DNA from: Planctomycetaceae bacterium | GTDB taxonomy: Bacteria; Planctomycetota; Planctomycetia; Planctomycetales; Planctomycetaceae | NCBI GenBank assembly: GCA_023262145.1 | Contig: JALRDR010000028.1 | Span: 1 to 33,373 of the forward strand | DNA length: 33,373 nucleotides | Reading direction: 5' to 3' | Translations under genes and position numbers: made by a program | Part shown: one piece after another, positions 3 through 7,005 of the stretch | Layout: every line of letters begins with the position of its first letter | Numbering within the stretch: the first letter of the stretch is position 1 | Notes under the pieces: model-generated | Databases searched by the model: none | What the model was told of the DNA's origin: nothing | What the model saw: the letters and a program-made list of their open reading frames with translations, nothing else

Positions 3-2060
3 GATCACAAGTACGATCCGTTTACACAGCTGGACTATTACCGACTGCTGGCATTCTTCAACAACACGGAAATTGAAGCGGACCTCAGGAATCCAGCGCA
101 GCCATCGTCCATCGCATTTCTCGGTCCTTCAATGCAGATCACAGAACCGCAGCGCGATCGCGAGCGACAGAATGCAGAGCGGGTCATTGAAGAGCTTCGC
201 ACGCAGATCTCGGCAGCGGAGGAGGCTCTGCAGGGCCGTCTGGAAGAACTTGCCGAGCACCGCGCAACGTGGCTCCGGCAACAGCGTGATGCAGAACTGC
301 AGAGCATTCTGAAGGTCACAGGATTTCAGTCGCAGGGTGCTGCGGATTCCTGGAAGCTGCTGGCAGATGGCAGTGTGCTGCTGACGGGAAAGGAACCCCC
401 GGACACAGATTTGTACACAGTCATCACGGCGCAGCCGCTCACTGAAGTGCGGACAATTCGCCTGGAAGTACTGACGGATGAGTCATTGCCGGGCAAAGGT
501 CCGGGACGCGGTGAGTCCGAACGGCCCAACTTTGTGCTGCATGAATTTCGAGTGCAGCACCGGGACAGCACCGGGACAACGAGGCAGCTTGGCTTCAGTG
601 CAGCCAGAGCAGATTTCTCACAACAGAACTGGGATGTGGCCGGAGCGATCGACGGCAGGTCCCCGACCGGCTGGGCGATCGCACCGGAATTTGGCCGCAG
701 TCATTTCGCGGAGTTTCAACTGCAGCAGCCACTCACTACGGCGGCTGAGGATGAGCTGATTTTTGAGCTGGATCAGCATCTGGGAAAAGGACGCAGCATC
801 GGTCGTTTTCGTCTGCGAGCAGGCCCGGCAGGATTTGCTGAGGGGTCCGCAGCAATGCCGGCTGAATTCGTCGCTGTCCTGCAGAAGCCCCGGGAGAAAT
901 GGACAAAGGCGGACAGGAAACTGCTGCAGCAGCAGTTTGCAACGGAAGACGAGTTATTGCAGAGGCTGATGCAGGAGTTACAGCGACAGGAGAAGTTGCT
1001 GGCCACGCTGAAACCGCGCACCACACTCGTGATGGTTGAGTCAGAGTCGCGGCCGACCTTTGTTTTTCAGCGTGGGGATTATCGCAGTCCCGGGGAGCCG
1101 GTGTTGCCCGGGTTTCCTGCCATTCTGAACGACCATGCTGACACCGGGACGACTCGCCTGGATCTCGCTCGATGGCTCGTATCGGATGCGAACCCACTCG
1201 CAGCCAGAGCTGCTGTCAATCGCTGGTGGGCAGAACTGTTCGGAGCAGGACTGGTCGCCACGCCCGAAGATTTTGGCCTGAAGGGCGACCGCCCAGAGCA
1301 TCCGGAGTTGCTGGACTGGCTGGCCGTAGAGCTGATGGAAAACGGCTGGTCAATGAAATCGCTGCTCAGAACGATCGTATTGAGCAAAACCTATCAGCAG
1401 TCGTCGGCTGTCGCACCTGAGGTGCGGGCTGCAGATCCGGAGAATCGATGGTTGTCGAGAGCTTCGGCATTCCGCATGGATGCAGAGATGATGCGGGACA
1501 ATCTGCTGGCGTTATCCGGCTTGCTCGATCGTTCCCAGGGTGGTCCTCCCATTTACCCCCCGCAACCAGACGGTTTGTGGAAAAAGGTGGGTGGCACACA
1601 GTACGACTATGAGGTCAGCGAAGGCACGCAGAAGTATCGACGAAGTCTCTATATTGTGCTGAAACGAAGCGCGATGTTCCCGGGGTTGATGACTTTTGAC
1701 GGATCCATCAGGCAAACCTGCACCGTACGGCGATCTCGAACAAATACTCCGATGCAGGCGCTCATGCTGATGAATGATGGTCTGAGCATAGAGGCTGCTG
1801 CTGCTCTTGCTGTCCAGGTGAATTTATCTGCAGACGAATCTGACGAAGTGCGGCTGGCGAAGATCTTTCTTCGCTGTACATCGCGACCGCCTGCCACCCG
1901 CGAGCTGCAGCTTTTGACAGACCTGCTGAATGACCAGCGTGCGGCCTTTTCTGAGGCAGCGACGGTCTCGTCCGAGGCGGTTGTTGAGGTGGAGCGCGCC
2001 GCATGGACAAGCGTGTGTCTGGTCATGCTGAATCTGCACGAGACGATCACGCGCAACTGA
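3..2060 (+). CDS. PSCyt/DUF1549-DUF1553 planctomycete protein, C-terminal part (5' truncated by window edge)
   Basis: The frame is open from nt 3 (DHKYDPFTQLDYYRLLAFFNNTE..., the region that follows the second CxxCH in this family). The C-terminal half has NPLAARAAVNRWWAELFGAGLVATPEDFG...HPELLDWLA...SLLRTIVLSKTYQQSS...RQTCTVRRSRTNTPMQALMLMND, typical of DUF1553. Confidence 0.93.
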   Translation, partial: DHKYDPFTQLDYYRLLAFFNNTEIEADLRNPAQPSSIAFLGPSMQITEPQRDRERQNAERVIEELRTQISAAEEALQGRLEELAEHRATWLRQQRDAELQSILKVTGFQSQGAADSWKLLADGSVLLTGKEPPDTDLYTVITAQPLTEVRTIRLEVLTDESLPGKGPGRGESERPNFVLHEFRVQHRDSTGTTRQLGFSAARADFSQQNWDVAGAIDGRSPTGWAIAPEFGRSHFAEFQLQQPLTTAAEDELIFELDQHLGKGRSIGRFRLRAGPAGFAEGSAAMPAEFVAVLQKPREKWTKADRKLLQQQFATEDELLQRLMQELQRQEKLLATLKPRTTLVMVESESRPTFVFQRGDYRSPGEPVLPGFPAILNDHADTGTTRLDLARWLVSDANPLAARAAVNRWWAELFGAGLVATPEDFGLKGDRPEHPELLDWLAVELMENGWSMKSLLRTIVLSKTYQQSSAVAPEVRAADPENRWLSRASAFRMDAEMMRDNLLALSGLLDRSQGGPPIYPPQPDGLWKKVGGTQYDYEVSEGTQKYRRSLYIVLKRSAMFPGLMTFDGSIRQTCTVRRSRTNTPMQALMLMNDGLSIEAAAALAVQVNLSADESDEVRLAKIFLRCTSRPPATRELQLLTDLLNDQRAAFSEAATVSSEAVVEVERAAWTSVCLVMLNLHETITRN

Positions 2061-2209
2061 GTTGCACGACTTTCACGGGTTTTTGCTCAGCTTGTTAAGC
2101 CAAGTTGCAGATTTTTGCCAGAAAAGCTGTGTTTCTGGGAAGAATTTCTGAGACAGCGAACGATACTCTTTGCGGTGTACAAATGTTGCGAGTGCAGTAG
2201 ATGTGAAGA

Positions 2210-2244
2210 ACAAGTGAAGACTGCACTGATCACTTGTGTTTTTT
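2210..2244 (+). terminator. Intrinsic terminator candidate 1 (8 bp perfect stem, 12 nt loop, T6)
   Basis: ACAAGTGA-agactgcactga-TCACTTGT-gTTTTTT. Confidence 0.6.
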
Positions 2245-2355
2245 CGTCCATTTCAGGGACGGTTTAACTCCTTGTCCGAGGGTATTCGGACATCACCTGC
2301 CAGATTGATTTGTCGGCATTACCGGCACAGCTGTTTTCGGTGGGTTTTTATCCTG

Positions 2356-2392
2356 ACTCTGCTGTTTTCAAAAACGGCAGGGTCTTTTTTTT
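2356..2392 (+). terminator. Intrinsic terminator candidate 2 (about 11 bp stem, T8)
   Basis: ACTCTGCTGTT-ttcaaa-AACGGCAGGGT (two GU wobbles) followed by CTTTTTTTT. Confidence 0.75.
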
Positions 2393-3070: not shown

Positions 3071-4189
3071 TCAGAATTCGCCAACGGGCAGACCATCGGA
3101 TGCGCCGGCAAGTCGGAGCAGAACGTCATGGTCTGAATTGACAGAGAGTGAGCGAACTGACCCATCGGCGAGGCAGTACTGAACAATTCCAGTATGGCAG
3201 CTGGTGAACTTGCGTCGATCCTGCTCCGGGTAGTTAAACGCAACCCCGGTCAGCGACCGCGTTGCATAGTGTACTCCCATCGGACCCATCATCCACGAGA
3301 ACGCAGTTGTACGGGAATTGTTACCGCCGGCCTTAAAGAAATCGCCGGTGACTTCCCCGAACAGAATAGTGTTTGATAGTCCGTCTCGAACATCACGAAA
3401 CTTCTTCTGCTGATTCATGCGGAAGATCCCTTCGTAGTCATTGATCGCTGCGAAGTCTGCAGAGGACGGGGAAATCAGGCGTTCCTCCGCCGTAAACGTC
3501 ATCCGTCCGGCACATGGCAGGTAATTCGTCAGGCCATGATTCAGATGTGTTGGAGTTGAATTTGGGCCAAGTTTGTATTCCTGCCGCACTCGGAAGCCTG
3601 GACTGAGCGCGATGGTCAGCGGATCATTCGACAATGTGAAGTTGAAATTTCCGAAGCTGAGGTCAATTGATGTGGTGGACAAGGCGCGGGCTGCATTATC
3701 GGTGGGGCACAGCAGCGCTGGAACCTGGTTACCCATTACGGCCGCAATCTGAGGATAATTCCAGTACGGCTGACGATCGGTGGCAGGAGTTCCGTCGTAA
3801 TCCTTTGGATTCAGGGAGATGCTTCCTGAGAATGCGCTGTACATCGCTTCCTGCTCCAGATACGGAAGCAGATAGACCATTGTGCCAACAAACGAGTAGT
3901 TCGAGCGTAAATCCGGGTCGAGGTAAGCTGACGTATCGAACAGCTGGCCCGGAGGCAGTTTGCCGTAGGATGATTCAAAATTGTGGACAGCAAGACCAAG
4001 CTGTTTCAGATTGTTGCGACACTGTGTTCGTCGCGCAGATTCACGAGCCTGCTGCACTGCGGGCAGCATGAGCGAAACCAGAATCGCAATGATTGTGATG
4101 ACAACGAGCAGTTCAATCAGAGTGAAGCCAGTTCGCTCTTCATTGGCGGGGCCGGCAGAAACCGGGGGATAATTCTGTCGAATCCTCAT
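3071..4189 (-). CDS. DUF1559 domain protein with type IV prepilin-like N-terminus
   Basis: GFTLIELLVVITIIAILVSLMLPAVQQARESARRTQCRNNLKQLGLAVHNFES... plus C-terminal H-x9-DG-type motif (CHTGIVQYCLADGSVRSL). Confidence 0.95.
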   Translation of the reverse strand: MRIRQNYPPVSAGPANEERTGFTLIELLVVITIIAILVSLMLPAVQQARESARRTQCRNNLKQLGLAVHNFESSYGKLPPGQLFDTSAYLDPDLRSNYSFVGTMVYLLPYLEQEAMYSAFSGSISLNPKDYDGTPATDRQPYWNYPQIAAVMGNQVPALLCPTDNAARALSTTSIDLSFGNFNFTLSNDPLTIALSPGFRVRQEYKLGPNSTPTHLNHGLTNYLPCAGRMTFTAEERLISPSSADFAAINDYEGIFRMNQQKKFRDVRDGLSNTILFGEVTGDFFKAGGNNSRTTAFSWMMGPMGVHYATRSLTGVAFNYPEQDRRKFTSCHTGIVQYCLADGSVRSLSVNSDHDVLLRLAGASDGLPVGEF

Positions 4190-6246: not shown

Positions 6247-7005
6247 ATGGATGCCATGAAACGCGTAAAACACTGGTTGTATCTGGGATTGATTGTGGCG
6301 GGAACGGCCTTGCTCCGCGTGCTGTTCCGGACCGTTCGCGTTCAGCACTATTGTGTAGAACCTGATGCGACGCCCTACAGCAGGCCCCGTGGTTCTGTGC
6401 GATATGCGTTCCCCTTCTGGCATGATCAGATCGCCCTGGCGATCTTTTCCAGTCGCACATGGAACCTGTCTGGCCTGATCAGTCGCCACCGGGATGGCGG
6501 GTATGTGGCTGATGCGGCCCGCATCGCAGGAATTCGTCCCGTACGCGGCAGCAGTAGTCGCGGAGGTGCGACGGCGGTCGCTGAACTGCTCCGGCTTCCG
6601 ACGTTGCATTTCGCAATGACTCCGGATGGGCCACGTGGGCCGCGACGGACGTTGAAGGATGGGGTTATTTTCATTGCCTCGCGCTCCGGACGGCCTCTTG
6701 TGCCATCCGGGATGGCCTGCAGCAATGCCTGGGAGATTCGCGGCAGCTGGACAACACTGACGATTCCGAAGCCGTTCTCCCGAACTGTACTCATTGCCGG
6801 GACGCCTGTTTCCATTCCGGAAGACGCAGAACGTGAGGAGCTTGCTGAATACATGAAATGTCTGGCTGAAGAGATGCACCGACTGGAGCAGCTGGCGGAG
6901 CGGGTGATTGGCGGCGACCAGACCGCTGTCAGCGAGATTGATCGTTCCGGGGAACACACGTGGGCAGCAATTGCCCGTGACTCAGACCGGAAGGCAGCAG
7001 CCTGA
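6247..7005 (+). CDS. DUF374 lysophospholipid acyltransferase-family protein
   Basis: PFWHDQIALAIF...LISRHRDGGYVADAARIAGIRPVRGSSSRGGATAVAEL...FAMTPDGPRGPRRTLKDGVIFIASRSGRPLVP. Confidence 0.9.
   Translation: MDAMKRVKHWLYLGLIVAGTALLRVLFRTVRVQHYCVEPDATPYSRPRGSVRYAFPFWHDQIALAIFSSRTWNLSGLISRHRDGGYVADAARIAGIRPVRGSSSRGGATAVAELLRLPTLHFAMTPDGPRGPRRTLKDGVIFIASRSGRPLVPSGMACSNAWEIRGSWTTLTIPKPFSRTVLIAGTPVSIPEDAEREELAEYMKCLAEEMHRLEQLAERVIGGDQTAVSEIDRSGEHTWAAIARDSDRKAAA

Follow-up and report, generated by a model that had tools for sequence, protein, structure and literature searches.

The window analysed here (the whole stretch of 33,373 nucleotides of a Planctomycetaceae genome) opens with a PSD1/DUF1553 gene on the plus strand (3..2060 in the ORF list, Pfam PF07587, E 9.9e-94), the 5' part of which lies outside the window. 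The conserved core of a small RNA (2234..2392, plus strand) begins 173 nt after the stop codon of this gene, and is followed by a convergent DUF1559 gene with an N-terminal methylation motif (3071..4189, minus strand, Pfam PF07596). The same order, DUF1553 gene, RNA block and opposite-strand DUF1559 gene, was shared by G013 and G009, two genomes of the same genus, with a similar distance between the DUF1553 stop and the RNA core and with orthologues of the DUF1559 gene in the same place. A strong GC-rich hairpin after an A-run (2832-2857, CCCCGCAGCGAAACGCTGCGGGG), also found in G013, is probably the terminator of the minus-strand DUF1559 gene.

Inverted repeats and fold stability downstream of the DUF1553 gene

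The first-pass annotation of this DNA had described a dense row of inverted repeats at 2118-2392, ending in a stem plus T8 terminator, as a candidate unannotated structured RNA. The repeats were indeed present, including those with perfect arms of 7-8 nt: two pairs of perfect 8-nt arms at 2191-2198/2220-2227 (AGTGCAGT/ACTGCACT) and 2210-2217/2230-2237 (ACAAGTGA/TCACTTGT, with a T-run after this second repeat), a perfect 7-bp stem at 2273-2279/2286-2292 and, by direct reading, CGTCC/GGACG at 2245-2261 and GTCGG/CCGGC at 2312-2326. An imperfect inverted repeat with 14-nt arms lay at 2111-2145. The terminator scan found a stem of 13 bp (2355-2384) with T8 directly after it (2385-2392). The two pairs of 8-nt arms interleave, so both cannot form as nested helices; they would make a pseudoknot, or form in an either/or order, just 5' of the conserved RNA. 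They are nearly all upstream of the conserved block (2234-2392) and were not conserved in G013 or G009, and are therefore possibly due to chance.

In the comparison with dinucleotide-shuffled sequence that had been suggested for this segment, 2061-2400 folded better than the shuffles (z -2.6 and -2.8 in two runs). Most of this excess stability came from the terminator: without it, 2061-2345 gave z -0.8, and 2118-2244 folded no better than its shuffles (z +0.25). The conserved unit 2234-2392 reached z -5.7 (z -2.0 minus its last 55 nt), and the stretch of equal length just upstream of it z 0.0. All 30 copies of the family described below folded better than shuffled sequence (mean z -5.2). The mean was -1.7 with the last 55 nt removed, only mildly better than shuffles for a fold that has lost its terminator, and -0.5 for upstream stretches of the same length. 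Fold statistics of single sequences were ambiguous on their own, and relatives were therefore compared.

Conservation and covariation in the Planctomycetaceae

The window and G013 are 87% identical in 2234-2392, compared with 56% in the flank immediately 5' of it, 43% in the 3' flank and 73% in the adjacent end of the coding region. The extent first proposed was thus upheld for 2234-2392, which is conserved, but not for 2118-2233, which is poorly conserved and folds like chance; the position near 2244, put forward as a possible transcript end, was instead where the first conserved hairpin (P1) begins. The hairpins are real, and the conserved element includes only those from 2244 onward.

When the 340-nt segment was compared with 59 genomes by BLAST, clear homologues came up in G013 and G009 alone, and a plasmid search gave none. 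A covariance model built from the three syntenic copies of the window, G013 and G009 (R1) matched four divergent copies in the same genus (G015, G003, G004 and G005, 42-44 bits), in which the structure was kept through many compensatory changes; its matches in other genera were weak and mostly unconfirmed. The model built from 7 copies (R2) gave a single strong match per genome in 16 of the 18 genomes of the genus, and detected further copies in other genera. With the model built from 23 copies (R3), 30 clear carriers belonging to 5 genera were detected among the 170 genomes of the family Planctomycetaceae: 16 genomes of the window's genus and 14 of four other genera, each with a single copy. 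In the carrier G081, whose genome is one contig, the copy occupies 1972091-1972275 on the minus strand. A marginal R3 match in G019 (E 0.006) was left out of the counts, and R3 had no match outside the Planctomycetaceae among 398 genomes sampled from the class. As part of the favoured explanation as a whole, these copies probably form a new family, so far confined to part of the Planctomycetaceae, with one copy per genome.

The only genomes of the genus in which the RNA was not detected were G002 and G016 (98% and 79% complete, respectively); given the completeness of G002, a real loss is possible there. In G013, two contigs (C89 and C105, loci L038 and L039) had ends within or beside the RNA, and overlapped there with small differences; since both end at the RNA, the assembly broke at this point, possibly through strain variation. 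A weak R2 match just upstream of csrA in G003 (L137) was rejected, its likeness to the RNA being limited to the terminator hairpin.

Covariation among the relatives was very strong, as expected of the structured RNA proposed in the first-pass annotation, which is supported by folding against shuffles, conservation and covariation alike. In the alignment of the 30 copies (A8), which was fitted to the model, 94.3% of the cells formed standard pairs and 35 of the 39 pairs showed double-sided changes, counts which do not represent independent events because the copies are related. The covariation score was 0.619, vs. 0.215 for shuffles and at most 0.142 for slid structures. A model-free alignment by MAFFT, given to RNAalifold, again yielded the helices P3 and P4 (see below) with compensatory changes.

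The core of the RNA (2234..2392, plus strand; R3 positions 1-181) was delimited by end-to-end matches of the relatives' covariance models and by the sharp fall of identity to G013 on both sides, and the 5' end of the RNA may lie further upstream than 2234; the gene is about 160-190 bases long. Helix P1 (2244..2262, UCGUCC/GGACGG) had 94% of its cells paired over the 30 copies, with double-sided changes in 5 of 6 pairs, and was variable and often a longer hairpin in relatives. Helix P2 (2273..2292, UGUCCGA/UCGGACA), with a G-rich loop, was paired in 88% of cells, with double-sided changes in 6 of 7 pairs. Helix P3 (2295..2345) joins ACCUGCC (2295-2301) to GGUGGGU (2339-2345), with 94% of cells paired and double-sided changes in 5 of 7 pairs, and encloses P3a (2312..2326, GUCGG/CCGGC), with 96% of cells paired and double-sided changes in all 5 pairs. 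Most relatives carried UGCUCGC/GCGAGCA in P3 and, in P3a, UUCAUA followed by GGAGA/UCUCC; in the window clade (G000, the window genome, with G013 and G009) these sequences were swapped for other paired ones. Helix P4 and its T8 (2355..2392) form the intrinsic terminator, present in every copy (97% paired, double-sided changes in 14 of 14 pairs). All these helices are on the plus strand. A further helix closing P1 (P0) was predicted in many single folds and was left out, its pairing being inconsistent in the alignment.

Putative promoters and gene context of the copies

Many copies were preceded by a visible -24/-12 element of the σ54 type. When scored with a matrix that follows the known consensus, and not trained on planctomycete promoters, 20 of the 30 copies had a σ54-like site within 200 nt upstream (cut-off score 10); the same held for 2.2% of background stretches and for 1 of the 30 stretches taken downstream. 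Among four copies that came to light only once this pattern was known (L155, L156, L158 and L159), three passed the cut-off and one scored 7.9. No site reached this score in the other 10 copies, including the whole window clade (G000, G013 and G009) and the copies of G006, G007, G008, G010 and G011; no σ70-like promoter was found upstream of the window copy either. The sigma factor gene rpoN was present in the window genome (G000:C238:6218-6691, E 1e-61) and in 156 of the 170 genomes of the family. A putative σ54-type promoter in most copies is strongly supported by these matches. Planctomycete σ54 has been linked to chaperones, proteases, stress proteins and csrA (PMC12316311), a paper in whose text a word search found no small RNA.

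Outside the window clade, the RNA was found in other neighbourhoods: beside a divergent DUF374 gene with a Gfo/Idh/MocA gene downstream, with a HAD-type hydrolase gene downstream, or beside DUF374 with a convergent H+-pyrophosphatase gene. In six loci (L138, L144, L154 and L156-L158) it lay between a divergent and a convergent gene, without a same-strand neighbour on either side, which argues for a transcription unit and a promoter of its own. The element is conserved, covaries and carries its own terminator, and its gene neighbours vary.

The DUF374 gene was the divergent neighbour of the RNA in most carriers (L119, L127, L128, L129, L138, L140 and L144). In the window, a DUF374 gene (6247-7005) was found 3.9 kb downstream of the RNA and on the same strand, a displacement which points to a rearranged locus in the window clade.

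Interpretation and comparison with known small RNAs

Taken together, the most probable explanation is a standalone small RNA of a new family, acting in trans and mostly controlled by σ54. Its conserved fold is a row of hairpins (P1, P2 and P3 with P3a) closed by the intrinsic terminator P4. From the sequences we infer its transcription, its action in trans, base-pairing, signal and targets as follows. In most carriers, the σ54 (RpoN) polymerase would transcribe the RNA from a promoter that serves it alone, and a promoter of this class would need an activated enhancer-binding protein, so that the RNA would be made only under a particular signal, probably nutritional or stress-related. The structured transcript may then act in trans, most likely pairing with mRNAs, without Hfq, through conserved single-stranded stretches such as the P1-P2 linker and the UUCAUA of P3. 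No Hfq (PF17209) was detected in the 18 genomes of the genus, while five control genomes gave a match, and any base-pairing by this RNA would therefore need to be Hfq-independent. Several csrA copies were found in every one of these 18 genomes (at least 3, and about a dozen at most), three of them in the window genome (G000:C914:3339-3494, C169:6488-6634 and C301:830-979); post-transcriptional control in the genus may rest on CsrA.

Of the two origins left open at first, an independent small RNA or a regulated 3' UTR, the independent small RNA is favoured, because the same RNA occurs in unrelated contexts, several of them without a same-strand neighbour, and mostly with its own σ54-like promoter; the window copy still fits a 3' UTR as well. 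That the window element belongs to the DUF1553 mRNA, as its structured 3' UTR or as a small RNA processed from it, is rather unlikely, and this reading was kept for the window copy because its clade has no recognisable σ54 site and has DUF1553 upstream on the same strand, with the stop 173 nt before the core (and similarly in G013 and G009) and neither a σ54- nor a σ70-like site found upstream of the window copy. However, the RNA elsewhere does not adjoin DUF1553 and often has no same-strand upstream gene at all, the DUF1553 gene of other members of the genus is directly followed by a DUF1501 gene without the RNA, and the RNA is far better conserved than the stretch separating it from the DUF1553 stop. 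In the window clade, with no recognisable σ54 site and a position about 170 nt behind DUF1553, the RNA would thus come from another promoter or from processing of the 3' end of the DUF1553 mRNA.

A same-strand gene (Gfo/Idh/MocA or HAD-type hydrolase) 50-360 nt downstream of many copies, and a terminator that could be regulated, would suit a cis-acting leader or attenuator controlling that gene by conditional termination, but the downstream gene differs by group and is convergent in the window, G013, G009, L138, L144, L154, L156, L157 and L158, and single folds show no conserved competing antiterminator helix, which makes this reading improbable. We consider it about as doubtful that the RNA works by binding protein, for instance as a sponge for CsrA, in the manner of CsrB/RsmZ: Hfq was undetected and each genome of the genus holds at least 3 CsrA copies, σ54-like promoters have been reported for planctomycete csrA (PMC12316311) and ANGGA occurs once in most copies, yet the GGA motifs are few and lie in stems instead of hairpin loops, and several copies, those of the window clade among them, lack the recurrent one. 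Much the least probable is a short protein-coding gene. In G003, G004, G005 and G015, a small ORF could begin at ATGGAGATGATCAGTCTGTTCTCC; nevertheless, its ATG and frame are not kept in the other copies, many copies have stops in every frame, no frame is open in all of them, and the changes preserve pairing.

The preferred small RNA would allow a wider, more tentative reading, which we place at somewhat less than even: the σ54-controlled, Hfq-independent RNA might serve several genera of the Planctomycetaceae as a standard regulator that connects nitrogen or stress signalling with post-transcriptional control in a lineage without detected Hfq and with several CsrA paralogues, and might have been rewired in some clades, including that of the window, to another promoter or to a 3'-UTR origin.

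Rfam 15 (including 6S RNA, tmRNA, SRP RNA and RNase P) gave no match at the gathering threshold in the window and six homologous loci, and the sole match in 12 further loci was a chance one, away from the RNA. The weak matches of the window, to PyrR (RF00515, 19.2 vs. a gathering threshold of 54 bits), NsiR1 (RF02399, 16.8 vs. 39) and suhB/mmgR (RF00519, 15.2 vs. 41 bits), reflected a likeness to the hairpin row or the terminator hairpin, each alignment including the terminator region, and were not found in other copies of the RNA. In the open literature (subscription papers being outside the scope of the search), no planctomycete small RNA of such description was found. Almost no small RNAs have been described in planctomycetes, and a 2022 survey counted 8 Rfam-listed families for the whole PVC group vs. 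345 for Proteobacteria (PMC9029176).

Among known systems, CsrB/RsmZ are similar in that this is a small RNA in a CsrA-rich genus and is linked to a sigma factor associated with stress, but the planctomycete RNA lacks their repeated GGA in hairpin loops. Another likeness is to the σ54-dependent small RNAs of Gammaproteobacteria, Qrr (Vibrio), GlmY/GlmZ (enterics) and CrcZ/CrcY (Pseudomonas). Unlike these, the planctomycete RNA belongs to another phylum, has no Rfam match, is single-copy, occurs in a genus where Hfq was undetected, and has no known activator gene identified beside it; like them, it is a small structured RNA with its own terminator and a putative -24/-12 promoter, which an enhancer-binding protein would probably activate. 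It is a previously uncatalogued small RNA family of a known kind of element, and its interest lies less in a new mechanism than in the lineage, the promoter class and the testability: the very strong covariation, the predictable σ54 switch and a carrier genome in one contig (G081) open to direct test both the role of σ54 in planctomycetes and the action of small RNAs there without Hfq.
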